From: Kiritimatiellia bacterium
GTDB taxonomy: Bacteria; Verrucomicrobiota; Kiritimatiellia; RFP12; UBA1067
Direction of reading: 5' to 3'
Assembly: GCA_017563185.1 (NCBI GenBank)
Contig: JAFXIL010000177.1
Span: forward strand, 1 to 42,215
Length of the DNA: 42,215 nucleotides
Shown piece by piece: positions 3,864-41,810 of this stretch (positions are counted from its first letter, which is position 1; each line of letters opens with the position of its first letter). Made by a program: the position numbers and the translations under genes. The notes under the pieces are model-generated. The model did not search any database. It worked only from the letters and a program-made list of their open reading frames with translations, and was not told the DNA's origin.

Positions 3864-6320
3864 CTACGCGAGCAGATCGGCGATGCGTCCGCCAAGAGAC
3901 GGATGCTTCTCGCGAGGCAGCGCGGCGGCGAGGCGCTCCAGAAGGGCCTTCACCTCTGCACGCAGGCCAGGCTCGAACCAGCGCCACGTGAGGAACGGCG
4001 AGAGGAGGCGCAGCGCGTTGTACTCGCCGCACTGCGCGTACTTGACGATCGTGCGCTCGATCCACGCGAGGCCCTCGTCCGTCCAGAGCCTGTCGGCGTT
4101 CGCGGTGAAGCCGCAGTACAGCGCGCGGGAGAGAGCAGGATGCGACATGCTCCATCCTTCGCGGCGCTCCTCCACGTCGATCGCCGCGAACACGTCCTCG
4201 TGCGGATCGCATGCGACGATGCGCAGATAGCTCGAATAGCCGTTCGTCGTCCTGCGCAGCTTCTCGCCTTCGGCCTCAAGAACTTCCTTCCTGCGAGGGC
4301 TCTCCCCGCGCACGAGCGCCGACAGCGCGTTGAGGCGCGCGGTGATGTTCTCGGCGCGATCGAGGTAGCCTTCGATCGCCGCCCACGCGCCAGGCGTGTT
4401 CAGCTCGGCGAGCATGTCGAGCACCACCTTGTCCCACGCGCGGCGCACTATCGACGCGGCGTCGATTCCGTTCGCGCTCTCTCCGCCGAGCGACGCTACG
4501 AGCGCGGCCTCTCCGATCGCCTCCGCGGCGGCCTTGCGCAGTGCATGCATCTCGGCGGCGTTCTCGCGCACGAACGCGCGCCGTCTGCGGTCGAGCGAAT
4601 GAACGCCCACGGAGAGCATCGCCTCCTTGGCGCCGAGGTCGAGCGACCCGTCGGCGAAGATCTCCTTGTAGAGCTCGAGCCACGCCTTCACGGCGCCGCG
4701 GTCGCGCAGCATCTTCATCGCCTCAGCGCGGTTGAACGCGTCGGGGTCCTTGCGCACCTGGCACACGAGCTCTTCCTCCGAAGCCTCCACTTCAAGCACG
4801 CCGTAGAATCCGCAGCCGCGGTTCCACGAGATGAAGTCGGGCTTCGGACACTTCGTGCGAAACTGCTGCATCGCTCCGTCCAGGACGAACGCGCCCGAGG
4901 CGACGTCGCGCCCGTCCTTCACGAGCGCGTACGGCACGGGCACCACGTAGTCGCCTTCGCGCACGAGCGTCACCGTCAGCTCTCCCGCCGCCCATGTCCA
5001 GCTAGCACGCACCGTGGGGTGTCCGCTCGAGAAGAGCCATGGACGCATCAGCGCGCCGATGTCGCGCCCCGTCGTCTCGGAGAACACCTTAAGGAAGTCC
5101 TCGGTGTTGGCGTTCCCTCCGTCGAAGCGGCGGAAGTATTCGCGCCACGCCTTGTCGTAGGCATCGGCGCCGATGAGGCTGCGCAGCGTGTTGAGCACTT
5201 CCGGCGCCTTGTCGTACGTGATGGCGTCCACCACGTCGTCGGGATCGTTCACGCCCTCGCGCACGATCGCGGGCGCGGAGCCGCTTTCGTCCTCGGCGAG
5301 CGCGCCGCCGTCCATGCGCAGCCCAGCCACGTCCATCGCGCGCGTGAACGCGGCGCCGAACTCGCGCGCGAGGAACGCGCGCTCCACGTTCACGGTGTAC
5401 GCCTCGTTGAGCCACATGTCGAACGGCGTCTCCATCGTCACGCCGCTGCCGCAGTGGCTGTGCTCGTACTCGTGCGGGATCACGCCGTGCGCATAGACGA
5501 GCCGCGCGTCGGATATCGACGAGTCGATGAGCGCGGCCTGCGTGACGATCGTTGTGTTGCCCGTGTTCTCCATGCCGCCGTAGAGCGACTTCTCCATGCA
5601 GATGGTGCGGTACGTCTCGTAGGGATACACGAAGCCCGTGAGCTCGTGCTGGAAGATGATCGACTTCTTGAGAATCTCCATCGGAACGCGCGCGCCGTCA
5701 ACGTGGCCCGGCGGAACGAGGTACTCAAGCTTCACCGTCTTGCCGATGTCGGGATACGTCACGCTGTCGGAGAGGACGTCCCACGTGCCTGCGCACGCGA
5801 TGAAGAGATACGGCGCCATCGGCTTGCGGTTCTCGTAGGTCCACGCCATGCGGCCGGGTCCCGCGGACCTCTTCTCCACGAGGTCGCCGTTGGAGATGAG
5901 ATGCGTGTATCGCTCGTCGCCTTCGAGCGTGGTGCGGAACGTGCATTTCGCCGTGCAGTCGTCGACGATCGGAAGTATGCGCTGGAAGCCGAACTGCTGG
6001 CACTGGCTCATGTACTGCTGCGGCGCGCCGGGAGGCGTCACGTCGCGGTAGATGCCCTCAAGGCGTACGCCGTCGGGATGCGACACATGGCCCACCTTCA
6101 CCGTAAAGCGCTCGCCCGGCGCGTACTCGCGGTCGAGGGCGTACGGCACCTTTGCGCCGTCGCAGTCGAGCGGCATCTCGCCGATGGCCTCGCGCGCCAC
6201 GAGATGCAGCACGCCCTCCGCCTCCACTCGGTCCTCGAAGAACCTTATCGTTGCGTCAACGTGCTCCAGCTGGGCCGGTGGCCGCCTGAACTCGCTGCGC
6301 CTGAACTTCCATTCTTGCAT
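3864..6320 (-). CDS. M1-family (aminopeptidase N-like) metallopeptidase, divergent
   Basis: 818 residues from ATG 6320. A GAGGA motif sits 5 bases before this ATG; the in-frame ATG at 6330-6332 overlaps that motif and has no ribosome site of its own. The gluzincin motif is present as HEYEH (about residues 283-287) with the third zinc ligand in WLNEAYT (Glu at about 306, the expected 19 residues on), and the substrate-binding GAMEN loop appears as GGMEN (about 248-252). It should remove N-terminal residues from peptides using one zinc ion. It is unusual in that the HExxHxWxGN context reads [11 protein letters not shown] and the loop has G for A, so it lies off the main PepN branch. The C-terminal half is helical and repeat-like, as in PepN. 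No signal peptide is seen, so it is probably cytoplasmic. A small membrane-protein gene lies upstream and pgi downstream. Confidence 0.85.
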
Positions 6321-23564: not shown

Positions 23565-23586
23565 ACGGCATGGCGCGCCAGGCCGT
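23565..23586. terminator. Palindrome between convergent genes, possible bidirectional terminator
   Basis: ACGGC-A-TGGC / GCCA-G-GCCGT pair around a GC loop with one mismatch. It fills the 22-base gap between the nuclease stop (23563) and the surface-protein stop (23588-23586). There is no T-tract, so termination would be weak or need other factors. Confidence 0.45.
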
Positions 23587-26500
23587 CACCTCACGAGTAT
23601 CGCGAAGAACTTCGTGCCCACGATTACGCCGTCGGCCACCTTCTCCAGCCTGAAGCGGTCCCGGTCGGCGGCCGTGGATTCAAGCGCGAAACTGCAGCTC
23701 GGCGCATGGCCAACCTTCCACTTGAAGAGATACTCGCCCTTCCCAAGCTGGCGCGCTCCCGTCTTGAGCTTGATCACGCCAGTAGCCGCGAATGCGTCGT
23801 CGGCGGGCTGATAGACGCTGTCCTCGTCGGTGAGATCAAGCCCCGTGCCGCTAGAGGCTGAGACGGAGCCGAGCGCGTTGGCCAGGTCGTTGACCTTGAG
23901 GTACCCCTCCTGCAGCGTGAGAGAATTGCCGCTGTCGCCGAGCTTCGCGCCCTCCAGCAGCTCCAGCGTGCCGCCGCCCTTCTTGACCGGCGGCTGCTTC
24001 AGAGGCACGGCGATCCTCAGCAGCGCGCCGTCCTCCACCTGCAGAACGCCCGGCACATTGTAGTCCGGGTCGTTCTGGAACGCCAGCTTCGCGGAGCTTC
24101 CGCTCGCTCGATGCACCGTGGTCGTGCCAGAGAGAACTGACAGCGCGCTGTGGACCACGATGCCGTCGTTGTTGTACGTTGCGCCTGTTCCCGAGAACAC
24201 GATCTCGCTCTCTCCGTGCATTCCCGCGATGCGCGTGTGGAGATGGGATTTCATCTCGCTCGTCGCCTCCACGACGCCGTTCGACACGACTAGCCACGGC
24301 GACTCGACCTGCTGCGTCACGTTCACGCCGCGGAACATTATCCTTCCGCCGTCGTAAACGTACACGTAAGCATTGTCCGGCAGACGATTGAACACCTGGC
24401 TGCCGTAGAGGGAGAGGATCGAGTTCTCTCCGTGCACGCGCACCGGCCTCTCCGCCGTGGCGGTGAAGCCGTTGAACTGCGCGTTGACGTGCAGAAAGGC
24501 GCCGTCCCTGATCTCGACCTCGCCCTTGAAGTTCGGGGAGTTCTGCGTGATGTCCATGTGCATGTTGCCGCCCTGCGTGGATAGGATGAACTTAGAGGTG
24601 GAATCCGAGACCATCGGCGCCGCAGGCACTACAGAGGCGCCCGTCGTGTAGCCCAGGCTGAACTCCAGCGTCTTGCCGGCGCCGATTGTGATGGCGCCCG
24701 GATTGCGCGGGCTGGAGTTGGAGAAGTTGACCTTCACCATTCCGCCGTCGGCCGCAGGCACGGTGATCGCGCCGATCGTGCCGCGTATGTCGCCGATCGT
24801 CTGGTCCTGCGTTGTTGCGGCGAACGTCAGGCCGCCCAGGCCGATGTAGAGCGGCACGTCGATCTCATATCCGGCGCCTACCGTGCCGGCGCTGAACGTC
24901 GGCACCGTGATCGAGCCTGCACCCGTGAAGAGGTACGGAGTCTCCTCGGTGTCGAAGTCGAGGGAGATCACCGTCCGGTCGCCAGAGACGTCCACCGTGG
25001 TGAGCGCCGTGGCAACGCCGTTTGTGCTGTCCTCGAACGTGACTTCGTGGTATCCGTCGCCGTTGTACCCTTCGGGATCCTGGTTCCATTGCCGCTCGCC
25101 CCATTCGCCAGACTGCGTGTTCCAGTAGATGTGCTTGGGCTGCTTGGCCTTGACGAGAGAGAGCCCGCCCACGCTTGCGACGGTCCAGCCCTCGGGAATC
25201 GAGGAGAACGCGAACCGCGAGCCCATCGTCTCGGTGAAGCCGCTGTACGCGAGTATTCTCACGGGCGCTTCGCGTCCCGCGAAGTCGATCGCCGAGAGAT
25301 CCACAGCGACCGAGCCGTTTTCGGGGAGCGTGAGCGTGGTGGTGACGGTGAGCGGCGCGCCGCCAAGCGGCCTGACAATAGTGCCGGCAGAGATGTTCAG
25401 GCGCGGCACTCTGGAGCCGGTGAGCAGCGTTCCCTCCTGCATAAGGAACGTTGCCGTGCACTTGGTCTGATCGACGGTGTCGGCAAACCGCACCGCGCCG
25501 GGACCGGTCTTCGCAATGTTCTGCATGAACGGTGTGCCCCACACGACCGAAGATCCTTCCGAGACCACTACCGGCACGGCGGCCTCGCCATGAATCGCGT
25601 TCGGAATGCCCTCCGCCGCCTCGAACGCGCACTCGCCGTCTATGAAGAACTTGCCGCTGTTCGAGAAGAAGTAGATGCCGTTGTTCTGGTAGGCGCCCTT
25701 CGCGCCCTGGAGGCGGAACGTGGAGTCCTTCATGTGGATGTTCTTGAACTTGATGTGCTCGCTGCCGGTGGCGCAGTCGACGCGCAACATGCCGTTAGTA
25801 AGCCAGAACTCGGGAATGTGGCTGGAGAACGGATTGACGCCGCAGACGTGTATCTCGCCGCCGTCAACCACCACCTGGCCGTTCTGCGGCAGGCGGTTGT
25901 TCACCTGCGAGCAGTGCGGGATGTACGCCTTCGCGCCCTCGCCCACGTAGAGGGAGCTGAAGCCGAGAATCGAGCCGTTGATGGTGACCTGCCCCTCCGT
26001 GACGGCGAACGCGCCGCCGAACGTGCCGCCCGTAATAGTGAGCGTGCCCGCGCCAAACTTTTCCTTTGTGCCCGCGCCGGTGAGATTTAGCGCACCAGAA
26101 GAGACGTCCTGATCAACTTTGAATGCGAACGAACCTTCCTCGGAAATGATCGCATGGTCGGGCAGACCGGGATACGTGACGCGCCCAGCGCCGATCTTCT
26201 TGAACTTTGAGGTGATGTCGGCCAAAGTGAACGTGGCGCCGGCGATGTCCCATTCCTCGCCCGCCGCCGCATACACGAGGAAGTTGCCGTTTGCCGGCAG
26301 AAGCACCTGGCCCTGCAGCGCGTTCGGACCCGCCACGCCGAACTCAGCGGTTGTGCCGGTGGCGTCGACCGCCGCCGTGAGCTGATGGTCGCCCGCAAGC
26401 ACTACCCGCGCCTCGGTTACGTCAACGCCATTCGTAATCTTCAGGAGTCCCGCGTATGCGTTGGCATCCATCGACACGATGTTGTTGCCCGTGGCTACGA

Positions 26501-28775
26501 ACATTGCCTTCATCACCTCGCCGAAGGCGGTTGGATAGCTCGCTGCGGCGCCACCGCTTGTCCAGGGGAGCGAATACCATGCGCCGTTCGTGACGTCAAC
26601 CAACGCCGCCGCGAAGTCCGCGTGCGTGGTGACATAGAGCGCGCCGTCCTCCACCGTGAGCACAGCGCTGGGAACCACGATACCGTTCGCGTCCTGCGTA
26701 ATCGTCGTGACGTTCTCCACCGAGAAGCCGCTCGCCACTCCGATGATGCGCTGCTTGCCGCCGCTTGTGATGACGACCTTGATCGTGCCCGCGCAGTCCG
26801 CGGCAAGAGTCGCCTGCGAGCCGCCGGCGATCTCGGCCGTGGCGCCGGCTGCGACCTTCACAACGCCAGTTCCCAGCGAACCTGAAGTTCTGGCGATCAA
26901 AGTGCCGGACTGCACGTCAACGCCGCCCGCGAATGTCGCATCCCTGTCGAGAACAAGCGTGCCCGCGCCACTCTTGGAGACGCCGCCTACGCCCTTCGGA
27001 CCCCATCCGAGCGCGACCGTCTTGCCGGCGGCGACGTCAAGCAGGAACCCGCCCGCCGCGATCGTCACGTTCTCGGCGGAGTTCTTGCGGAAGTCGAAGT
27101 ACTTCGCACAGTCTTCATTGACCTTGAAAGTTGTGCCGTTGAATGTGACAACGTCGATGTCGTCGTCGTACATCAGGAAGCCGTTGGGGCAGATCGCCTC
27201 GCCGCCGTTGAAGTTGACCGTGGCGAGCGAGCGGGTGGTGGAGTTGGCGCCGAACACGAACTTGTCCTGCAGCTCCACGGTGCCGCCGCCGATGTTGACC
27301 GTGCCGGAGGACGTGACGCCGGTTGTGTCGTTGTCCCAGCCGGCCGCCACGCGCAGGCGGCGCGTCACCACGCGGCCGCCCGTCATCGTCATGAAGCCGC
27401 GGCCGCCCTTCTGCTGCGTGCCGATGGTGATGTCGCGGCCAACCTTGTTGCCGTCGGTCGCGTTCGTCACCACAAGCGTGCCGCCGCGGATGTCGAGGTA
27501 GTTGTCGGTATTCGAGTCGCAGGTGACCACAAAGGGCCCGGCGATCTCGGAGACGCCCGCGCCCTCGGCGAGAACGAGCGTCATGCCCTTGTCGATGAAC
27601 GTGCGCCAGTAGGTGCTCTTGCGCAGCCCCGCGCCGTCCGCCAGCGTGAGGGTTACGCCCTGCGCCGGACGGAACTCGGCCCAGAAGTCGAGGTGGAACG
27701 TGCCGTTCTTCCATACGACGTCGCCGGAGAGCGCGGGATTGCCGATGACGTTGTACACGCCGCCGCCGAGGTCGAGAGCGCCGCCGGTCTGCGTTATGCG
27801 GCCCGAGGCGTGGACGCCGTTGGCGAACGCGAGCGTCCCGCCGCCCTTGAACTGAAGGTCGGCGGCGTAGACAGGGGCGCCAAAGGTAGCAGTCGCTCCG
27901 CTTTCCACGTATAGCTCCCCGGGCAGCGAGTAGGTCGACCCCGCGGAGCCGACAGTCTCGTCGAGCGTGAAGGTTGACGCGGCGGGCGCGGCGAACGCGC
28001 CGGCGACGTTCCGCCATCCGCCGTTGTTCCACTTTGCGTCGAGGTAGTCGTAGACGGCGGTACGCTCCTCGTCCGTCAGCCCGCGCGTGAAGATGATCAC
28101 CTCCGAGAGGGCGCGCGCGCCGTTTCGCGAACCCACGTAGTCGCGGTCGCGGGAGAGCTGGTTGCTGCGCGTGTTGCCCGCGGTGGCGATGGCGATGATG
28201 TTGCGCGCGTTCGCGACGGGCGCGGCCGCGTCTGGGTTGGAGACGGCGGCCGTCGCGCTGTTGAGGTAGAAGGTGGGCTTGCCGGGGTAGCCGGAGCTGT
28301 CCTTCGCCCAGGCCTCGTTCCACACGTAGCCGGACTTGCCGCGGTGAAGATCGAAGTACGTGTCGTCGCCGAGAAGCGGCTCGAGATTGTCGTCGAGGAT
28401 GAACCGGCCGACGAGGAACACGGTGCGGATGGTGGATATGCGCTCGTAGCGGAGGTCCACGTCGCTGCCGCTCGCGCCCATCTGGAAGGCGGGCGCGCCG
28501 TCCACCAGCTGAACGCCGCCGTAGATCACGCTGCTGGAGCAGTCGCCGCTGGTCTGGTTCCTCACCTTGTAGGCCACGGCGTCGCCGTACGTCGCCTTGC
28601 CCGAGCCCTTGTTGAGCCACTTCTCCACGCCGCCTCGCCCGTTGAACTCGAAGTTCGCGGGCGACGACGCGTCGAGCCACATCGCCGCCTCGCCGAGAAG
28701 CGAATCAACGTTGACGGCGGCGGAAGCCGCAACGGCCGCAGCCGCGAACAACAAACCAACCACAGTCTTCTTCAT
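23586..28775 (-). CDS. Giant exported surface protein: LamG-like domain plus beta-helix repeats
   Basis: 1,729 residues from ATG 28775, which has AAGGAG 9 bases upstream and starts a signal peptide (MKKTVVGLLFAAAAVAASAA). Residues about 25-245 resemble a LamG/concanavalin fold: LGEAAMWLDASSPANFEF, RTVFLVGRF and EVIIFTRGLTDEERTAVYDYLDAKWN. The rest is Gly/Thr/Val-rich parallel beta-helix of the autotransporter-associated repeat kind (TQTGGALDLGGGVYN, GVSKSGAGTLVLDRDATFAGGVDV). Two long stretches (coding roughly 25,960-25,360 and 24,480-23,900) are related: both contain NRLPxN, DGGxI, VNx and Y(Q/N)NxGI in the same order. No outer-membrane barrel or PEP-CTERM tail is seen; it ends VIVGTKFFAILVR. 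It probably binds glycans or acts as an adhesin. Promoter at 28825. Confidence 0.85.
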   Translation of the reverse strand: MKKTVVGLLFAAAAVAASAAVNVDSLLGEAAMWLDASSPANFEFNGRGGVEKWLNKGSGKATYGDAVAYKVRNQTSGDCSSSVIYGGVQLVDGAPAFQMGASGSDVDLRYERISTIRTVFLVGRFILDDNLEPLLGDDTYFDLHRGKSGYVWNEAWAKDSSGYPGKPTFYLNSATAAVSNPDAAAPVANARNIIAIATAGNTRSNQLSRDRDYVGSRNGARALSEVIIFTRGLTDEERTAVYDYLDAKWNNGGWRNVAGAFAAPAASTFTLDETVGSAGSTYSLPGELYVESGATATFGAPVYAADLQFKGGGTLAFANGVHASGRITQTGGALDLGGGVYNVIGNPALSGDVVWKNGTFHLDFWAEFRPAQGVTLTLADGAGLRKSTYWRTFIDKGMTLVLAEGAGVSEIAGPFVVTCDSNTDNYLDIRGGTLVVTNATDGNKVGRDITIGTQQKGGRGFMTMTGGRVVTRRLRVAAGWDNDTTGVTSSGTVNIGGGTVELQDKFVFGANSTTRSLATVNFNGGEAICPNGFLMYDDDIDVVTFNGTTFKVNEDCAKYFDFRKNSAENVTIAAGGFLLDVAAGKTVALGWGPKGVGGVSKSGAGTLVLDRDATFAGGVDVQSGTLIARTSGSLGTGVVKVAAGATAEIAGGSQATLAADCAGTIKVVITSGGKQRIIGVASGFSVENVTTITQDANGIVVPSAVLTVEDGALYVTTHADFAAALVDVTNGAWYSLPWTSGGAAASYPTAFGEVMKAMFVATGNNIVSMDANAYAGLLKITNGVDVTEARVVLAGDHQLTAAVDATGTTAEFGVAGPNALQGQVLLPANGNFLVYAAAGEEWDIAGATFTLADITSKFKKIGAGRVTYPGLPDHAIISEEGSFAFKVDQDVSSGALNLTGAGTKEKFGAGTLTITGGTFGGAFAVTEGQVTINGSILGFSSLYVGEGAKAYIPHCSQVNNRLPQNGQVVVDGGEIHVCGVNPFSSHIPEFWLTNGMLRVDCATGSEHIKFKNIHMKDSTFRLQGAKGAYQNNGIYFFSNSGKFFIDGECAFEAAEGIPNAIHGEAAVPVVVSEGSSVVWGTPFMQNIAKTGPGAVRFADTVDQTKCTATFLMQEGTLLTGSRVPRLNISAGTIVRPLGGAPLTVTTTLTLPENGSVAVDLSAIDFAGREAPVRILAYSGFTETMGSRFAFSSIPEGWTVASVGGLSLVKAKQPKHIYWNTQSGEWGERQWNQDPEGYNGDGYHEVTFEDSTNGVATALTTVDVSGDRTVISLDFDTEETPYLFTGAGSITVPTFSAGTVGAGYEIDVPLYIGLGGLTFAATTQDQTIGDIRGTIGAITVPAADGGMVKVNFSNSSPRNPGAITIGAGKTLEFSLGYTTGASVVPAAPMVSDSTSKFILSTQGGNMHMDITQNSPNFKGEVEIRDGAFLHVNAQFNGFTATAERPVRVHGENSILSLYGSQVFNRLPDNAYVYVYDGGRIMFRGVNVTQQVESPWLVVSNGVVEATSEMKSHLHTRIAGMHGESEIVFSGTGATYNNDGIVVHSALSVLSGTTTVHRASGSSAKLAFQNDPDYNVPGVLQVEDGALLRIAVPLKQPPVKKGGGTLELLEGAKLGDSGNSLTLQEGYLKVNDLANALGSVSASSGTGLDLTDEDSVYQPADDAFAATGVIKLKTGARQLGKGEYLFKWKVGHAPSCSFALESTAADRDRFRLEKVADGVIVGTKFFAILVR

Positions 28776-28824
28776 GACGAATTCTCCTTTTATGAAGATT
28801 GCTCTGCACATCCAAATTGTGATT

Positions 28825-28835
28825 ATTTTACCATA
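28825..28835 (-). promoter_or_regulatory. Extended -10 promoter of the giant surface-protein gene
   Basis: Minus strand TATGGTAAAAT: -10 TAAAAT (28830-28825) with TGn in front; TTGCGC lies 18 bases further upstream as a possible -35. About 50 bases before ATG 28775. The rest of the divergent 28776-28952 gap holds small palindromes only. Confidence 0.5.
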
Positions 28836-28952
28836 ATTTCGGACTCTGGCGCAATTGGAAATTTTCGCCATGAAACGCCGAATGGCGGCAGATGGTCAAA
28901 TGGCCATCTTCAGGTGAAGTGCCTACCATGTCGCTGGTGTAAACTAATAGGC

Positions 28953-29820: not shown

Positions 29821-30615
29821 ATGGTCAACGTCATATGCATCAAATACGGACGCTACTACGGAGCGTTCTACGTCAACCGCCTCTACGCCGGCGTCAGGAA
29901 GCACCTCTCGCGCCAGTTCCGTTTCGTGTGCGTCACGAACGACCCAACGGGCATACGCCCTGAAGTGGAATGCGTGCCGTTCGCCGAAAACCCCGGCGTG
30001 CCCGGACGGAAATGGCCGAACATCTTCTCGAAGCTCACGCTCTTCAAGGACGGCTTCGCCGGCCTCGAGGGGCCTACGCTCTGCCTTGACATCGACGTGC
30101 TGATTACAGGCCCACTCGACAAGTTCTTCGACTACCGCCCGGGCGACTTCTGCATCATCCGCAACTGGGTCGAGTTCTACAAGCGCATCTTCCGCAGGGC
30201 GCCCCTCATCGGCAACTCGTCCTGCTTCCGCTTCGACGCCGGCCGCTCGAACGCCGTGTACGAGTTCTTCCTGCGCGAGAAAGACGATCCGTCGAAGGCC
30301 GCTCTCTTCACCAAGGGATCGCAGAAGCTCCAGACGCGCGCCATGTTCAGCGCAGGCAAGGTAAGCTGGTGGCCGCGCGGATGGGTCGCCTCCTTCAAGC
30401 GGCAGTGCATCCCGCCCTTCCCTCTGAACAAGTTCATCGCGCCGCGCCAGCCGAAGAATGCTTCCGTGATCGCCTTCCACGGCCACCCCGACATCCCCGA
30501 GGCGCGCTCAGGGTACACGTTCCGCGACACGAAGAGCGGGCGCGTGCAGGTCAAGAGCCATCTCACGTGCCTTCCTACGCCGTGGATTGACTCGCTATGG
30601 CACGACCAGTTATGA
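29821..30615 (+). CDS. Glycosyltransferase-like protein with DxD motif (GT8/GT32-like)
   Basis: 264 residues. NVICIKYGRYYGAFYVNRLY opens a GT-A fold and TLCLDIDVLITGPLD carries a DxD manganese-binding motif (Asp-Ile-Asp), followed by GDFCIIRNW, GNSSCFRFDAG and a late AFHGHPDIPEA. This arrangement matches glycosyltransferases of the GT8/GT32-like group that add sugars to polysaccharide. AAAGGAG sits 6 bases before the ATG, a strong ribosome site. No signal peptide or membrane segment. It follows the GT2-like gene by 10 bases and precedes the response regulator by 22 bases, so the two-component system may be transcribed with it as well as from its own promoter. Confidence 0.75.
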   Translation: MVNVICIKYGRYYGAFYVNRLYAGVRKHLSRQFRFVCVTNDPTGIRPEVECVPFAENPGVPGRKWPNIFSKLTLFKDGFAGLEGPTLCLDIDVLITGPLDKFFDYRPGDFCIIRNWVEFYKRIFRRAPLIGNSSCFRFDAGRSNAVYEFFLREKDDPSKAALFTKGSQKLQTRAMFSAGKVSWWPRGWVASFKRQCIPPFPLNKFIAPRQPKNASVIAFHGHPDIPEARSGYTFRDTKSGRVQVKSHLTCLPTPWIDSLWHDQL

Positions 30616-30621
30616 TAGAAT
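30613..30621 (+). promoter_or_regulatory. Extended -10 just upstream of the response regulator
   Basis: TGATAGAAT (TGn plus TAGAAT) overlaps the stop codon of the preceding glycosyltransferase. Transcription would start near 30628, only about 10 bases before ATG 30638, giving a nearly leaderless message; the regulator gene also lacks a clear Shine-Dalgarno. Confidence 0.4.
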
Positions 30622-30637
30622 ATATGGCTGCAACGCC

Positions 30638-31306
30638 ATGAACATTCTCATCATAGAAGACGACACGGCGACGGCCGAATTCGTGGCTGGCGCCTTCAAG
30701 CAGGTAGGCTACGCCACGATGCACGTCGCGGACGGCGAAGCCGGCCTTGCCGCCGCGCTGCACGGCCCCTACGACGCTGCCGTGGTTGACATCATGCTGC
30801 CGCGCCTCGACGGGCTTGAGATCATCCGCCGCGTGCGGGCGGCAGGGCGCGCCCTGCCGATCATAGTGCTCTCCGCTCGCGGAAGCGTGGACGCGAAAAT
30901 CCACGGCCTCGAAGCGGGCGGCGACGACTACCTCGCCAAGCCCTTCTCCGTCGCCGAGCTAGTCGCGCGCGTCCAGGCGCTTCTGCGCCGGGCCAGCCGC
31001 GCGGAAGAGACGACCATACTCAAGGTCGAGGACCTTGTGATGGACCTCGTTACGCACCGCGTGACGCGCGCGGGCGAACCGATCGACCTCCAGCCCCTCG
31101 AGTACCAGCTGCTCGAATACCTGATGCGCAACAGGGGGCGCGTAGTCACGCGCAACACGATTCTCGACCGCGTGTGGAACTACAGCTTCGACCCGCACAC
31201 GAACGTTGTCGAGTCGCGCGTGTACCACCTCCGGGAAAAGATAGACCGCCGCTTCGAGCGCAAGCTCATACGCACCGTGAGGGGCTTCGGCTATGTCCTC
31301 GGCTAG
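30638..31306 (+). CDS. OmpR/PhoB-family response regulator
   Basis: 222 residues from ATG 30638 (MNILIIEDD). The receiver domain has the acidic pair EDD, phosphoacceptor Asp51 in AAVVDIMLPRLDG, the Ser in IIVLSARGSVD and the Lys of LAKPFSVAEL. The C-terminal winged helix is complete (LQPLEYQLLEYLMRNRGRVVTRNTIL, VESRVYHLREKID, IRTVRGFGYVLG). It should bind DNA as a dimer when phosphorylated by the kinase encoded next, with which it overlaps by 14 bases. The neighbouring glycosyltransferases suggest a surface or envelope signal, but targets are not visible. Confidence 0.95.
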   Translation: MNILIIEDDTATAEFVAGAFKQVGYATMHVADGEAGLAAALHGPYDAAVVDIMLPRLDGLEIIRRVRAAGRALPIIVLSARGSVDAKIHGLEAGGDDYLAKPFSVAELVARVQALLRRASRAEETTILKVEDLVMDLVTHRVTRAGEPIDLQPLEYQLLEYLMRNRGRVVTRNTILDRVWNYSFDPHTNVVESRVYHLREKIDRRFERKLIRTVRGFGYVLG

Positions 31307-32690
31307 AAGAGCCCCATCGCTGCGCCGGTACATCGTAGCCGTGTCGCTCTCCGCTGGCGCGCTCCTCTTTCTGCTCTCGGGCGCGCTGATCCTCTTCGGA
31401 TCGTGGTCGTTCATGAAGTCCGCGTACGAGGGATTCCTCGACCGAAGCACGGCGGACCTCGTGGAGGAATACGCAGAGTCCGGCGGCGACCTCAAGAAAA
31501 TGCGCAGCGTATTCGTCGAAGACGTGGAGGAGCACGGCGCAGACGGCATCTTTCTGCTAATCACGGACCCTGCGGGCAGGGAAGTGCTGAGCGCCTGCTC
31601 GGACAAGACGATTCTGCGCACCATGCTCTCCCGCGCGCAGAGAGACCTCCCCGCCTACCGCATCAGCAAGGAAAGCGCCCAGCCCCACCGCCGCCGCATA
31701 GTGCTGCGCGCGAAGACCACGATTCTGCCCGACGGGTTCAAGCTCTCGGTCGGGCACAACGTGACGGCCTTCGAGCAGCATCTGCAGTTCCTCTCCATAA
31801 CGCTCGGCGTCGCGTTTCTGCTCTCGCTGCTGCTCGGCGGCCTGGCGACGGACTGGCTGGCGCGACCGTTCGTGCGATCGCTGCGGAACGTAACCGACGC
31901 CGCCCGCAGAATCAAAGCCGGCGAATGGGCCACCCGCGTCAAGCCCTCGCACGAAAGCCGCGAGCTCATTCTGCTGGAAGGCGCCTTCAACACGATGTGC
32001 GACCAGAACGAAAAAACCATCACGGAGCTGCAGACGCTGACCGACGACATAGCGCACGACCTGCGCACGCCCCTCACCCGTCTGCGCACGGCCGCCGAAT
32101 TCGCCGCGATGGGCGGCGAACTGAAGCGCCCGCTCCCCGAGATGCTTTTCGAGCAGTCGTCCGACATGCTGGAGCTGATCAACACCATGCTTGAGATCTC
32201 GCAGACGGGCTGCAGAATCGACCGCACGCCGCGCGAGGACATCAATCTGTGCGCCTTCCTGCGCGAGACGGTGGAACTCTATGCGACTGTGCTGGACGAC
32301 CAGAAGCTCGCCGTAAACCTCGACCTGCCGAAGGAGAGCGTTGTATTCTCCGGCCATCGCGGCCGCCTCCAGCGCCTGCTCGGCAACCTCCTCGACAACG
32401 CAATCAAGTTCACTCCGGCCGGGGGCGTGATCACCCTGTCGCTGGTGCAGACGGCCTCCGGAATCGTGCTGCGCGTCTCCGACACAGGCTGCGGCATCGC
32501 CCCCGAGGAGATTCCGCAAGTCTTCCGCAGATTCTGGCGGTCGGACTCCAGCCGCTCCCTGCCCGGCAACGGCCTCGGCCTGGCGCTCGCCAAGGCGATA
32601 GTCACCTCGTACGCCGGCACGATCACATGCGAGTCGTCGCCCGGCAAAGGCACAACGTTCACAATCACCATTCCAGGCGGTGTGAACTAG
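31293..32690 (+). CDS. Membrane sensor histidine kinase
   Basis: 465 residues. Two membrane segments (about 18-40 and 165-190) bracket a roughly 120-residue periplasmic sensor region without a recognisable fold. Then come a HAMP linker (RNVTDAARRIKAGEW), a phosphoacceptor site in DDIAHDLRTPLTRLR (His255) and a complete ATPase domain: GNLLDNAIKFTP (N-box), DTGCGIAPEEI (G1), FRRFWRSDSSRS (F-box) and GNGLGLALAKAI (G2). It phosphorylates the response regulator encoded just upstream. All catalytic boxes are present, in contrast to the stub at 1.7-2.0 kb. The ligand is unknown. It converges on the uronate operon, 34 bases from the uxaC stop. Confidence 0.94.
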   Translation: MSSARRAPSLRRYIVAVSLSAGALLFLLSGALILFGSWSFMKSAYEGFLDRSTADLVEEYAESGGDLKKMRSVFVEDVEEHGADGIFLLITDPAGREVLSACSDKTILRTMLSRAQRDLPAYRISKESAQPHRRRIVLRAKTTILPDGFKLSVGHNVTAFEQHLQFLSITLGVAFLLSLLLGGLATDWLARPFVRSLRNVTDAARRIKAGEWATRVKPSHESRELILLEGAFNTMCDQNEKTITELQTLTDDIAHDLRTPLTRLRTAAEFAAMGGELKRPLPEMLFEQSSDMLELINTMLEISQTGCRIDRTPREDINLCAFLRETVELYATVLDDQKLAVNLDLPKESVVFSGHRGRLQRLLGNLLDNAIKFTPAGGVITLSLVQTASGIVLRVSDTGCGIAPEEIPQVFRRFWRSDSSRSLPGNGLGLALAKAIVTSYAGTITCESSPGKGTTFTITIPGGVN

Positions 32691-36104: not shown

Positions 36105-37064
36105 TCATGTGAATGTAATCTCGGCGCCGTGGAAGAGGAAGTTGCCGCCCACCACGTACTCCTTCGCCGTGGGCGAGAAGCGGTCGACCACATCGATGTG
36201 GAGGTGCCCGGCAAGGATTCCCTTCAGAAGCGGCTGCGCCTTGAGGTAGGCCACGAAGTCCCGCGTCGTTGGATCGCTCATCTTGCACTGGTACTTCGAC
36301 GCGTCCGGTATCGCGAAGAGGTTCTTCTTCGCCCAGAACTTCGTCGCCGCGCGCCAGATGTGCGGCGTGTTGAACGGCACGTGCATGCAGAGAATCGTGG
36401 GGAGGCCCTTCTTGAACTCCGCCTCCACGCGCGCCGCCTGCGCGGCCGTCACCGTTCCGGGAGCGTCGTCTATCGCCACGAAGTTGACGCCGTTGACGAC
36501 GGTCGAGGCGAGGTCGTTGTTGAACGGATACGCCGCCGCAAGGGCCGCGCGCACGGCCTCCTTCTTCACACCGTCATCGCCCAACCACATGTTGGGCGAA
36601 TGCTCGTGGTTGCCTAGGCAGCCGAACATCTTGGCGCCGCCCTCGCCATAGTATTTGCGCACGAGGTCGAAATTGGCCTCGCTCTGCCAGTCGATGAGGT
36701 CGCCGGTGTGCAGCACGTAGTCCACGTGCTGCTTCGCCCACGCAAGCGAGTCGCGCAGCGCCTCCTCCTGGCGGCCGCCGAACGTCTGCGAGCGCATGGT
36801 CTTCAGCCGCTGCTTCTTCTCCCCCTCCCGGGGATAGGCCGCGGTGAGATGCGTGTCGGAGATGTGGAGAAGCGAAAACGGCTTCTCGGCGCCTGCCTTG
36901 ATGTGGTGGCAGGCGATGGAGAGCCGCTCGAAGCGTCCACGCTTCGGGAAGAGCGCGGGATCGTCTTCTGCGACGGACGGCAATGCGCACGCGGCCACGA
37001 GGCCGCCTAGCGCAAGAGAGCCGCCGCGGAGGAATTCGCGCCGCGAGATCTCCGCCTCGCTCAC
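36105..37064 (-). CDS. Tat-exported calcineurin-like metallophosphoesterase
   Basis: 319 residues. Twin-arginine signal SRREFLRGGSLALGGLVAAC; the Cys could also be lipidated. The five metal-binding blocks of the fold are present: HISDTHL (Asp70, His72), GDLID, LGNHEH, CMHVPF and the final GHLHIDV. It hydrolyses phosphomono- or diesters outside the cytoplasm. The GTG start at 37064 overlaps the TGA of the GH2 gene (GTGA), so translation is coupled; no ATG is available earlier. Together with the GH2 enzyme and the oxidoreductase it may strip phosphate from a substituted glycan or liberate phosphate, but that is inferred from position only. Confidence 0.87.
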   Translation of the reverse strand: MSEAEISRREFLRGGSLALGGLVAACALPSVAEDDPALFPKRGRFERLSIACHHIKAGAEKPFSLLHISDTHLTAAYPREGEKKQRLKTMRSQTFGGRQEEALRDSLAWAKQHVDYVLHTGDLIDWQSEANFDLVRKYYGEGGAKMFGCLGNHEHSPNMWLGDDGVKKEAVRAALAAAYPFNNDLASTVVNGVNFVAIDDAPGTVTAAQAARVEAEFKKGLPTILCMHVPFNTPHIWRAATKFWAKKNLFAIPDASKYQCKMSDPTTRDFVAYLKAQPLLKGILAGHLHIDVVDRFSPTAKEYVVGGNFLFHGAEITFT

Positions 37065-38929
37065 TTGCCCTCCACCTTCCGGCGCACTTCGTCGTGGGCC
37101 TTCTTGAGGACGGCGGGATTGTACTTGAGAACCTTGCGGTCGTACGTTAGAAGGCCGTTGATCTCGATCTCCACGTCCGTCGTCTGCGTGTAGATGGATC
37201 CGGCAAGCCCCTGCTCCGCATACTCGCCGAGTTTCTCCATGAGGCCAAGATATGTCTTCTCGAGGCCTTCAGGCGTCTTCGTATCCTCAATGCCGCCGTA
37301 GCCCCAGTTGCCGGTCTTCTCGCCCAGCACCCTGCCCTGCGCGAACTCGCGCCAGATGTGTCCGGCTACGGGATGGCCGAGGCCGCCGAACTCGCCGAGG
37401 AAGGAGATGCGGCGATCGTTGACGGGCGGCATCGCGGGGCCGCGGTACGCATGGTAGTCCACCACGTCGGCCGCCTCGCACTTGTCGGCGGGAAGGTGCC
37501 TGGTGGTGATGCGGCCCCTCTTGTCGCGCTGGAATGTGGAGCCGCCCTCGAAGTCGCACCAGCCGGAAGGTCCATCGACAAGGCGCGTGGGGTCGTACTT
37601 CTTCACGAAGTCGAGCGTGGAGTGGGTGAGGAACGGATCGTGCTGGCTCCAGCCCTCGTTGTATGGCACCCACATCACGATAGACGGCACCTTGCGCAGA
37701 AGATCGACGAGGCCCTTGAGCTCGCGGCGGTAGAGGCTGTAGCCCTTGGTGACCTCCCAGCGGAACGGGTCGTTCGCGTTGTGCGTGGTGCTGGGCATGT
37801 CCTGAAGCACCAGAAGGCCCATCCTGTCGCAGAGCGCGTAGTACCGGAGAGGCTCCACCTTGATGTGCTTGCGCATGGTGTTGAAGCCGCAGTCCTTGAG
37901 CGTCTGGATGTCGAAGGCCATCGCCTCCTCCGAGGGCGGGGTGAGAAGCCCGTCGGGCCACCAGCCCTGGTCGAGAGTGCCCATCACGTAGTATGGCTTG
38001 TTGTTGAGGAAGAAGCGCAGAACGCCCTTCGAGTCCCTGCGCTTCTCGAACTTGCGCATTCCGAAGTAGCCCTTGATCTCGTCCCTGCCGAACTTCGCCT
38101 TGAAGTCGTAGAGCTTGGGCGATTCGGGGCTCCACAGCCCGAAGCCCTTCGGCATCTTGAGGACGCACTGCTCGCCCGGGCAGAAAGTTCCCTCGGCCAC
38201 GGCCTTCCCGCCGTCAAGCACCGTAACGCTGCCCTTCTCGGAGTCGCCGTACCTGAGGCCGCACACCTTGAACTTGAGCGACACCTCGCCCTTGTCTATG
38301 TCGGTGACGACGTCGTAGTCGGCAATGTGCTTCTCGGGGACGGTCTCAAGCCACACGGTCTGCCAGATGCCGCTCATGCGCGTGTAGAAGCAGGCGTACG
38401 TCCTGAAGGACTGCTTGCCGCGGCTGTTGACGAATGCCTCGGTCGGGTCCCACACCAGCACCGTGAGCGTGTTCTCGCCCTTCTTCGCGTACGGAGTCAG
38501 GTCCACCGTGAACGGCAGCTGGCCGCCCTCGTGCGGGGTGCAGCCCACCTCGTCGTGGCCGAGATAGACGCTCGCGCGGAAATCCACCGCCCCGAAGTGA
38601 AGCAGAATCTTCTCGCCGGGCTTGGGGTCTAGCGCTATCTTGCGCGTGTACCATAGATACTGATGCGGCTCCAGAAGGCGCCCCCCGCAGCCGGAGATCG
38701 GCGACTCCAGGGCGAACGGCACGGTGATCTTGCCGTCCCACTTCTCCGGGCGACCGTCGGTCTTCGCGATGTCGGTCACGGCGTAGTCCCACTGGCCGTT
38801 CAGGTTCGTCCAGCTCTCGCGCACCAGCTGCGGACGCGGATACCCGCGCCACGCGTTTTCGGGCGTCACCTTCTCGCCCCAAGTCGTCAACATCGTCGCG
38901 GCCGCGGCCGCAATCATCATTCCGCTCAT
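37061..38929 (-). CDS. Glycoside hydrolase family 2 enzyme (beta-galactosidase/glucuronidase type)
   Basis: 622 residues from ATG 38929 (AGGAGAACGAA upstream); the frame upstream has no such site. The N-terminus (MSGMMIAAAAATMLTTWG) is a short possible signal. A jelly-roll (NLNGQWDYAV, RLLEPHQYLWYTRKI, FGAVDFRASVYLG), an immunoglobulin-like domain and a TIM barrel are in the standard GH2 order. Catalytic residues are visible: acid/base Glu in WVPYNEGW and nucleophile Glu in SFLGEFGGLGH. It cleaves terminal beta-galactoside, beta-glucuronide or related sugars. Because uxaC lies in the same operon, beta-glucuronidase activity is a reasonable guess, but not read from the sequence. It is the first gene of the operon and has an extended -10 promoter at 38988-39000. 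Confidence 0.9.
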   Translation of the reverse strand: MSGMMIAAAAATMLTTWGEKVTPENAWRGYPRPQLVRESWTNLNGQWDYAVTDIAKTDGRPEKWDGKITVPFALESPISGCGGRLLEPHQYLWYTRKIALDPKPGEKILLHFGAVDFRASVYLGHDEVGCTPHEGGQLPFTVDLTPYAKKGENTLTVLVWDPTEAFVNSRGKQSFRTYACFYTRMSGIWQTVWLETVPEKHIADYDVVTDIDKGEVSLKFKVCGLRYGDSEKGSVTVLDGGKAVAEGTFCPGEQCVLKMPKGFGLWSPESPKLYDFKAKFGRDEIKGYFGMRKFEKRRDSKGVLRFFLNNKPYYVMGTLDQGWWPDGLLTPPSEEAMAFDIQTLKDCGFNTMRKHIKVEPLRYYALCDRMGLLVLQDMPSTTHNANDPFRWEVTKGYSLYRRELKGLVDLLRKVPSIVMWVPYNEGWSQHDPFLTHSTLDFVKKYDPTRLVDGPSGWCDFEGGSTFQRDKRGRITTRHLPADKCEAADVVDYHAYRGPAMPPVNDRRISFLGEFGGLGHPVAGHIWREFAQGRVLGEKTGNWGYGGIEDTKTPEGLEKTYLGLMEKLGEYAEQGLAGSIYTQTTDVEIEINGLLTYDRKVLKYNPAVLKKAHDEVRRKVEGK

Positions 38930-38987
38930 TTCGTTCTCCTTTTTCGGGCTGGCGCCGCCGTTCGGCCATACCGCGCCCACACCAAAG

Positions 38988-39000
38988 AGTTTACCAAAAA
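38988..39000 (-). promoter_or_regulatory. Extended -10 promoter of the GH2/uronate operon
   Basis: Minus strand TTTTTGGTAAACT: -10 TAAACT (38993-38988) with TGn in front. About 59 bases upstream of ATG 38929. It has the same T-run plus TGn layout as the elements at 155, 14799 and 20236. Confidence 0.55.
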
Positions 39001-39017
39001 GCGGAGCTTTGCGCAAG

Positions 39018-39455
39018 TTAGCGGATGAAGATCGTGAGGCCCTTCTTCACGTAGATTCCGTCGTCGGCCACGATGATGCGGGCGAGCGTGGACGAACGGC
39101 TATCCTGATCCATCACGAACGTGACGCCTTCCGGACGCGCCTCCCACGCGACGATCCGCTCGCCGTCGCGCAGGTTGCGCCCGGCAAGATACAACGTGAC
39201 CGTCGAGTCTGGCGCGTACGTGATAGAATCGCACCCCCAGGCAAGCGGACACCGCACGGGCAGTTCGCCCGAAAGCGCCGAAAGGTCGAGCGTCAAGGGC
39301 GTGTGGTTCTGGTTTATGAAGCCATACGTGTTTCCCGTCACGTCGATCACAGAATCTGCGCCCAGGCGAACGTCGGTCAGCATGATCTTGTTCCACGAGC
39401 TCGCAGGCGTCGCCGAGCTTTTCAGCGTGCCGCCGTTCAGGCGTGACGACCACGA
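39018..39455 (-). pseudogene. C-terminal fragment of a surface beta-helix protein
   Basis: About 145 residues in one open frame, beginning near LNGGTLKSSATPASSWNKI and ending at GIYVKKGLTIFIR. The content (LTDVRLGADSVIDVTGNTYG, LTLDLSALSGELPV, STVTLYLAGRNL) is the C-terminal part of a large beta-strand-rich exported protein like the one at 23.6-28.8 kb, and the final residues echo that protein's ending VGTKFFAILVR. In frame upstream a TGA lies at 39480-39482, after a few codons that no longer look like this family. There is no start codon or signal peptide, so the gene is broken. The missing upstream part seems to lie inverted next to it (39443-39631). Confidence 0.75.
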
Positions 39456-39763
39456 CGACGGGACTTGGTGCGGGCGATTTCACGTCCGGCAACGAGGTGG
39501 GGCTTTTCGCATCGCACTACAACGGCATCAATGCAAACCTCAACAACTACTGCTACTGTCGCCTCTACCACTTCAAGGTGACGAAAACCGACGGAACCGT
39601 CGCGTGTAATCTTGTCCCCGCGGTGCAGAATCCATGCAATCGGCTCCCGGGCATCAGGGAACCGATCAGCCAGATCGCCGTAGAAATTCCCGCCCAAGGC
39701 GTACGCAATCATCAAGAACAAAAGCAGACCAACGCTGAACAATGTCATCAATACCGCCTTCAT
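39437..39763 (-). pseudogene. Short membrane protein N-terminus fused to antisense sequence
   Basis: The first roughly 45 residues look like a genuine protein start: MKAVLMTLFSVGLLLFLMIA, a membrane or signal segment, then ALGGNFYGDLADRFPDAREP. The ATG at 39763 has AGGAG 11 bases upstream and overlaps the previous stop as ATGA, so translation is coupled. From about 39631 on, the frame is antisense to the inverted LamG fragment (for example EVVEATVAVVVEV), so the original C-terminus has been lost or replaced. Whether the chimera is still made is unknown. I do not recognise the family of the intact part. Confidence 0.5.
39443..39631 (+). pseudogene. Inverted LamG-domain fragment of a surface protein
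   Basis: About 63 codons that read well only on the plus strand: TTTTTGLGAGDFTSGNEV, then GLFASHYNGINANLNNY, CYCRLYHFKV and TKTDGTVACNLVPAVQNP. The RLYHFKV plus NLVPAVQNP pattern is the end of a LamG-like surface-protein domain, where a GLYDLV-type sequence should follow; instead the frame runs into antisense of the next gene. No start codon context or signal is present. It lies head-to-tail against the C-terminal fragment on the other strand, so this is probably an internal piece of one ancestral gene that was inverted. Confidence 0.65.
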
Positions 39764-40509
39764 TGTTGTTTTCTCCTGCTACTACTGTTTAGAATATGCA
39801 CTTGGTCGTATTTCTCGGGCATTTTGCCTATCTCAACCTTTCCTGAATAAACTTTAAATCTGCAACCGACGGAATTGCAGACATTCGTCAACGCATCCCA
39901 GGCCGTTGTTGCCCCTATACCGTCGCAGGGAATCAAGGCAGTTTCCAGTTTCGGCTTTTCCGGCCCAGTCTTCGCGGCAACAGAATCCGCGCAAACGAAC
40001 GTTATTCCTCGGCTCTCAAGCGGAATGTCTGGGCTGTCGAAGTCTTTTGTCGCCCGACTCATATACTCAACGAAATCCTTCATCGTGACAGGGGCATAAA
40101 AGTACACTTCTGGCATCGTGATCGCCTTCAGACGGCGAACCGTTTCCGCGTGTCTCCAGTTCCACGGACGCGGCCATTCCCGCTGAAAGCGCCCGTCGTC
40201 ACCCTCGTCGCCGGTCCTGTCGAACAGGCGACCGTCTGGACCATATACAAGGACGACCGGCCCCGACGCGAGGAACCTGCACGGCTTTAAAACAACCAAC
40301 GTGTAATTCGTCCCGTCGCGATCGTAATCCAGCGTGGCCGTAATGTCGTCCTTCTCTGCAACCATCAACGCCTTCATATCTGAATAAGAACAATAACGGT
40401 GAAAACGCTTGCCTCCCGGGATGTCGAGTACAATGCTTAATGCCGCCAGCAAAGCAAACACGGCTAAAGCCCCTGCCACGCATCCAAGTGCCATAATCAT
40501 TCTCTTCAT
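39760..40509 (-). CDS. Exported or membrane-anchored protein with STN-like C-terminal half
   Basis: 249 residues from ATG 40509 (GGAAAGCGACG upstream). The first 30 residues form one hydrophobic segment (MIMALGCVAGALAVFALLAA). The C-terminal 110 residues resemble the short secretin/TonB N-terminal (STN) fold seen at the start of secretins: MKDFVEYMSRATKDFDSP, LESRGITFV, TTAWDALTNVCNSVGCRFKV and GKVEIG in the order beta-alpha-beta-alpha-beta. Such domains bind peptides or partner proteins in the periplasm. No secretin or TonB-dependent receptor follows. It lies 34 bases after a lipoprotein gene whose 5' leader is nearly identical, and is coupled (ATGA) to the broken gene downstream. The region is lower in GC than the rest of the window. 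Confidence 0.55.
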   Translation of the reverse strand: MKRMIMALGCVAGALAVFALLAALSIVLDIPGGKRFHRYCSYSDMKALMVAEKDDITATLDYDRDGTNYTLVVLKPCRFLASGPVVLVYGPDGRLFDRTGDEGDDGRFQREWPRPWNWRHAETVRRLKAITMPEVYFYAPVTMKDFVEYMSRATKDFDSPDIPLESRGITFVCADSVAAKTGPEKPKLETALIPCDGIGATTAWDALTNVCNSVGCRFKVYSGKVEIGKMPEKYDQVHILNSSSRRKQQ

Positions 40510-40543
40510 CGTCGCTTTCCTTTCTTTGCGGCCTTTGCATTCC
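40507..40543 (-). repeat. Duplicated 5' leader, copy 1
   Basis: Start codon plus 34 bases upstream match the segment at 41774-41810 with two differences (one at each of two positions) over about 37 bases. Both copies contain GCAAAGGCCGCAAAGAAAGG (minus strand) and the ribosome site GGAAAG. The signal peptides that follow are also similar. Confidence 0.75.
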
Positions 40544-41776
40544 TTAAGGCGAACCATCAATATTCACGACATACCCGCTGTTGCGCCCGTATGAATCTTT
40601 GCCGGGAATCTTTTCACCATTGAAATTGCCATCCGCGCCGACGGTCCAGATGATACCACGTCCCGAATCGTAATTCAACGCCTTCCCGCAATCAAATGGG
40701 TCAGTCGGCACCGACGGCAGAAACTTTGGCACAAGCGCATCGAGCGTGTCTGGGAAACCGCCACCGTTTGCACGACTCCAGCGACGCACTGCCACCATAA
40801 CCTGCGCGGCCCTTACTTTAAAACATTGCTCAGCCGTCATACTGATTATCGCCTTGCAGTTTTTCGCATGCTCATGCGAAATTAAGATCCCAATAGAATT
40901 CGGCGTAAACGTTCCTACATCTAGCTTCTTGCAGAAGTCTGAAGCGACTTCTCCCCGTAAGGCTTTGCGCGTGATCTCGTTTAGGTTCGACATGGTCTCG
41001 TTCCTGTGCAATGCAAATCTGGCATAAGCCAACTGCCAGAAATGGAGATTTTGCCTGGGCCTTAACTCGACAATCGCTTTCGCCAACGTATAGGCGTTTT
41101 TGACAGACCGTTCCAAGCTCGTATTTGACGGCTCAAGTCCTTCAAGCATCTTTGCTATGCGTTCAAGCGTTTCTAACGTGGTGTTTTGACCTCGTGCAAT
41201 ATCTTTCAGATTTTCACATGCCGACTTTACTATGGACACAGCAAATGCAAGCGAGATGAAAGTATCTGCATCTTCTTCCACCAACTTGCCAAACCTGATC
41301 AATATCACGATGTGCCGCAGTGCCATCGGAATGTCGCTAGCTTCCATTGCACGTTCTACACGCATCCCTAGAAGGCGCAAATATTCAACCATAATGTCTA
41401 GCGGTATCTCGGTGCGTTCTAGGTTTAAGAAATCCAAGGTTCCCATAACCGTGCTGTGAAAACGAGGTCGTCGTAACGCCGTCTCAACAGCTGTGAAAAA
41501 CGCCGCGTTTTCGGCAAGCAGTCTGTCCTTTTGCTCCGTCGAGATTGGTTCATTCTCATCATCGGCACACTCGTCTTCAACGCGATGCAGCAGATTCGTT
41601 GCAGCAATCAGCGGAATAAAAGCGTTGTCCTCGTCAGGTACCGGAACCTGTTCGTATAGAAGCGCGTCATCGACATCAACGCTGTCCACATCGCACTCAT
41701 ACAGACGGCATCCAGCCAGATTCACCACCGCTGCGAGCATCGCCACATATCCGAGCGCAAGCATCATTTTCTTCAT
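40544..41776 (-). CDS. Lipoprotein with type II secretion pseudopilin-like C-terminus
   Basis: 410 residues from ATG 41776 (GGAAAGCGAAG upstream). Signal peptide with lipobox (MLAAVVNLAGC), so probably anchored in a membrane by lipid. The middle is helical, without a recognised domain (ILIRFGKLVEEDADTFISLA, SVKNAYTLAKAIVELRP). The last 80 residues match the end of secreted proteins related to GspG pseudopilins: GGGFPDTLDALVPKFLP, VPTDPFDCGKALNYD and IIWTVGADGNFNG, a family found in many planctomycete and Kiritimatiellota-type genomes. GspG-type assembly is not implied, since the N-terminal prepilin motif is absent. The next gene starts 34 bases later. Confidence 0.65.
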   Translation of the reverse strand: MKKMMLALGYVAMLAAVVNLAGCRLYECDVDSVDVDDALLYEQVPVPDEDNAFIPLIAATNLLHRVEDECADDENEPISTEQKDRLLAENAAFFTAVETALRRPRFHSTVMGTLDFLNLERTEIPLDIMVEYLRLLGMRVERAMEASDIPMALRHIVILIRFGKLVEEDADTFISLAFAVSIVKSACENLKDIARGQNTTLETLERIAKMLEGLEPSNTSLERSVKNAYTLAKAIVELRPRQNLHFWQLAYARFALHRNETMSNLNEITRKALRGEVASDFCKKLDVGTFTPNSIGILISHEHAKNCKAIISMTAEQCFKVRAAQVMVAVRRWSRANGGGFPDTLDALVPKFLPSVPTDPFDCGKALNYDSGRGIIWTVGADGNFNGEKIPGKDSYGRNSGYVVNIDGSP

Positions 41777-41810
41777 CTTCGCTTTCCTTTCTTTGCGGCC
41801 TTTGCGTTCT
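41774..41810 (-). repeat. Duplicated 5' leader, copy 2
   Basis: Partner of 40507-40543; nearly identical over 37 bases including the ribosome site and start codon of the lipoprotein gene. The following signal peptides (MKKMMLALGYVAMLAA and MKRMIMALGCVAGALA) are alike while the mature proteins are not. Confidence 0.75.

Follow-up and report, generated by a model that had tools for sequence, protein, structure and literature searches.

A composite of surface-protein and membrane-gene remnants with one reversed piece, probably assembled by illegitimate recombination, in a Kiritimatiellia bacterium

The window analysed here, a stretch of 42,215 nucleotides, makes up all of contig C141 in a Kiritimatiellia MAG of 206 contigs and 3.2 Mb. 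Between a GH2-family glycoside hydrolase gene and a gene for a 266-aa protein lie the C-terminal end of a surface-protein gene, the end of a LamG-like domain in reverse orientation, and the start of a membrane-protein gene (Table 1). All three coding pieces, which the initial annotation had placed within 750 bases, are present and not due to chance; the internal join J0 at 39283-39293 is additional to that description. Scans for tRNA genes and Rfam families over the window returned nothing, nor did PADLOC on the genes adjoining the composite, and a literature search on these surface proteins found no study. Those relatives of the neighbouring gene that carry names belong to MAGs of Kiritimatiellae, Verrucomicrobia, and Lentisphaerae, one of them from roe deer omasum.

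Further observations were made elsewhere in the window. Positions 23586-28871 encode a surface-type protein of 1761 aa, which matches PATR weakly and lies near a two-component system on the opposite strand (30587-32690). The leader GCCGCAAAGAAAGGAA occurs twice, at 40517-40532 and 41784-41799, close to where the 266-aa and 432-aa genes begin (chance expectation for the repeat, 0.02); similar stretches precede genes in SIG88, UBA7008, and G252, and the window genome holds one further near-match.

Table 1 Features of the composite locus and its flanking genes. Positions are those of the window; a dot denotes a feature without strand.
Feature	Position	Strand	Remarks
GH2-family glycoside hydrolase gene	37061..39016	-	Pfam Glyco_hydro_2 domains; downstream of the composite; synteny anchor with G013
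C-terminal surface-protein fragment, whole	39018-39441	-	Two modules joined in frame at J0
Surface-gene C-terminal end, 91 codons and stop	39018..39293	-	94-95% DNA identity to L051 (1129-1404); same GH2 neighbour
Internal join J0, 11-bp motif ACGCTCGACCT (encodes TLDL)	39283..39293	-	Common to both parents; window, L053, and L051 aligned
Upstream module LNGGTLKS...TPLTLDL of other surface-gene type	39283..39441	-	90% DNA identity to L053 (G011, contig C123); homology ends at 39441
J1, minus-strand surface module / plus-strand LamG	39441..39443	.	L053 homology ends at 39441; LamG reading starts at 39443
LamG-like domain end, reversed	39443..39622	+	Similarity to ...LVPA; segment may extend to 39629
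J2, LamG / membrane gene	39623..39630	.	LamG similarity ends at 39622; membrane-gene homology ends at 39630
108-aa fusion ORF, membrane N-terminus and antisense LamG	39437..39763	-	Open reading frame; stop at 39437
ATGA-coupled membrane gene, first 44 codons, truncated	39630..39763	-	84% DNA identity to L108; end exact at 39630
266-aa gene	39760..40560	-	Upstream of the broken membrane gene, ATGA-coupled; 94% DNA identity to SIG88

The C-terminal fragment belongs to a family that is very large in the window genome, where 43 matches were obtained, the fragment itself included (best other match: 60% identity, E 5e-33). Over the final 276 bases it shares 94-95% identity with the terminus of an open gene (L051) on contig C432 of G013; this surface gene has at least 467 codons, adjoins the same GH2 gene, and carries its LamG end on the same strand. 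Judged from its sequence, the terminal part of the fragment is orthologous to the G013 gene. The description of the locus as a surface-protein remnant is borne out; among the genomes examined, a surface gene adjoins the GH2 gene in the window genome and G013 only. The fragment is about 140 codons long, against at least 467 in the G013 gene, and over 140 codons its frame is still open. Counted by codon position (1:2:3), the fragment differs from G013 at 5:2:8 sites, too few for relaxed selection to show. Contigs C62 and C432 of G013 both end within surface genes: the protein on C62 already nears its C-terminus, and C432 starts inside LamG. If these two contigs were adjacent, the surface gene would lie between the 266-aa gene and the GH2 gene.

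The upstream module reads in frame with this end. Its counterpart in G011 (L053) spans at least about 900 codons and encodes a surface protein with LamG directly after an apparent signal peptide. The order expected for intact relatives, LamG first and the C-terminal part after it on one strand, was indeed seen. The minus-strand placement of the fragment was likewise correct, but its limit has to be moved from 39455 to 39441, where homology to L053 stops. Because L053 holds the motif ACGCTCGACCT twice, 321 bp apart, J0 can be explained by in-frame deletion between the repeats or by recombination between two genes. Separately, a surface-protein tail standing by itself, about two dozen residues long and ending ...RIIVADDGITVKKGFAIFMR, was noted in G000 (contig C90, 4043-4153; L117, 2044-2154), after an apparently unrelated carbohydrate-type gene and before a topoisomerase-like gene; a 62-bp stretch of it is also found in contig C50 of G013 and contig C5 of G011, with 89% identity to the window. 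This tail may be another small remnant or may have a role of its own.

The LamG piece matches surface proteins of the window genome and of relatives at E 1e-12 to 1e-15, and in tblastn it matches L104 (E 5e-15) and L105 (E 2e-14). Its closest kin are the L104, L105, and L107 proteins (46-48% identity); it shares 17 of 54 residues (31% identity) with the LamG that the G013 surface gene encodes at the corresponding locus. The piece is real and lies on the plus strand, as annotated, and ends at about 39622-39629 instead of 39631. A search for its donor at the DNA level, carried out across the genus, gave only short stretches of 71-80% identity, and the window genome holds no close DNA match to it elsewhere. 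Neither Pfam nor NCBIfam matched the fragments or the membrane protein significantly; on the LamG domain Pfam gave a bare detection (E 0.037), and a sequence-profile search of solved structures gave no match. A single-sequence model of a full-domain relative was unusable (pLDDT 32); with eight sequences pLDDT rose to 84, and the model matches laminin-G and pentraxin structures (against the laminin alpha2 LG region, 2wjs: Z 14.6, rmsd 2.9, 153 residues aligned). The domain of the intact relative is predicted from this model to be a laminin-G-type jelly-roll beta sandwich, of which the window has only the last third.

G252, which belongs to a different genus, has the membrane gene intact (L108; 171 aa; 84% DNA and 82% protein identity), and 44 of the 171 codons are retained in the window. 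Searches of the pieces against related genomes have in this way returned as intact parents the G013 surface gene and the 171-aa gene of G252. The ATGA overlap with the 266-aa gene was confirmed, and the minus-strand frame continues into antisense LamG as had been described; the resulting 108-aa fusion ORF is probably meaningless. In SIG88 (L080) the membrane gene carries a 419-bp frameshifting deletion, next to a neighbouring gene 94% identical to that of the window; G010 and G013 (L052, and L082/L119) lack it and keep its 3' flank as in G252; in UBA7008 (L081) it is the 266-aa gene that passes into another gene's tail. These differing kinds of damage indicate a locus that has repeatedly been losing genes. 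There, at 5732-5861, the cut 266-aa gene gives way to the tail of a lipoprotein-like gene, the one situated ahead of the membrane gene in G252, which makes another mosaic join at this locus.

At each junction homology to the parents (L051 and L053, L108) is lost sharply, and at the three joins the parents overlap by about 11, a few, and no more than 8 bp. No inverted repeats were detected in 39380-39700, nor any flanking the segment in a wider scan; the junction sequences were not found in viral contigs, and no recombinase is present among the proteins annotated here.

An inversion of about 190 bp inside a single surface gene had been favoured as the simplest explanation, in keeping with the LamG-first order of the relatives. 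Such an inversion, however, would leave the same gene on both flanks, and the right flank is an L108-type membrane gene. The spacing between LamG and LNGGTL is about 530 bp or more in L053 and in contig C82 of the window genome, and this spacer is missing here; the LamG subtype also differs, as the protein is 31% identical to the LamG of G013, whereas the C-terminal end is 94% identical to the G013 gene in DNA. We consider a simple inversion very improbable. Phase-variation-like invertible DNA, which would switch a surface or membrane gene, had been named as well, and a coding segment does lie reversed between two broken frames; but the inverted repeats to be looked for at 39.44 and 39.63 kb are absent, and flipping the segment would restore neither gene because most of both is missing. 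Almost no credence can be given to it.

Assembly error deserves more weight. Every junction at 39.0-39.8 kb is known from one metagenome assembly, a second assembly with these junctions was not found, and the fragmentation of the MAG and its many surface-protein paralogues would favour a contig that wrongly joins several surface-gene pieces and a membrane gene. Repeats that usually mislead short-read assemblers are longer than the overlaps seen here, however, which reach 11 bp at most, and the GH2-adjacent surface gene and the pair of 266-aa and membrane genes each occur in independent assemblies; a chimera is thus unlikely. The 108-aa ORF might instead yield a short membrane protein whose tail is new, given that its start codon, ATGA coupling, and hydrophobic N-terminus survive and 108 codons are open. 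Yet its tail is antisense LamG, coding relatives of it were not found, and a gene that is broken or lost in SIG88, G010, and G013 fits loss over use, so that a new functional fusion appears exceedingly improbable.

The locus is best read as a case of ordinary decay of genes within a surface-protein family that has expanded; decay had been one of the options first offered. It is probably a composite of scraps from at least three broken genes, one of them reversed, formed by illegitimate recombination. The surface gene beside the GH2 gene would have lost most of its body, and the cut gene would have been joined, through junctions without homology, to a membrane gene truncated after its 44th codon. 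A LamG scrap of roughly 180-190 bp would have been captured in reverse between the two, its donor probably being another surface-protein gene; as a donor was not found at the DNA level, the scrap might also stem from the same gene after module exchange. The surviving end of the surface gene would in addition have been shortened or recombined, in frame, at the 11-bp repeat. This order of events is a reconstruction, and the composite would presumably be without function. For the mechanism we infer joining by microhomology or slippage; classical end joining is not a likely route, because a search of 16 genomes of the genus found no Ku. With homology to intact genes of which much is missing, the remnant is by sequence a gene remnant or pseudogene.

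It may also be asked whether, in these Kiritimatiellae, short conserved motifs (TLDL, LNGGTL) are the sites at which surface-protein genes are shuffled module by module, with the locus as a failed product or donor archive. We regard this as decidedly doubtful; if it were true generally, module exchange at short motifs would offer a route to study surface diversification in Kiritimatiellae. On its own the locus matters little, and it serves as an example of gene loss and mixing in a large surface-protein family of an uncultured gut lineage. It also advises caution, in that oppositely oriented adjacent fragments need not imply inversion.

Phase variation of surface genes through invertible segments is a known kind of system, and the locus resembles it in having a reversed coding segment among surface genes; it differs in that inverted repeats and an annotated recombinase are lacking and a flip restores nothing. 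The functional-pseudogene archive of Anaplasma msp2 (PMC2789410) is similar in that truncated copies of a large surface-protein family are kept in the genome, and dissimilar in that the LamG scrap here is without a close DNA match elsewhere in its genome. Bacterial chimeric pseudogenes produced by illegitimate recombination differ from the present case, where one scrap is reversed, so that what is left of one gene continues into antisense sequence of another family. They resemble it in combining truncated pieces of several genes with short or no homology, beside intact genes, and the neighbours of the window genome show other stages of losing one parent gene.
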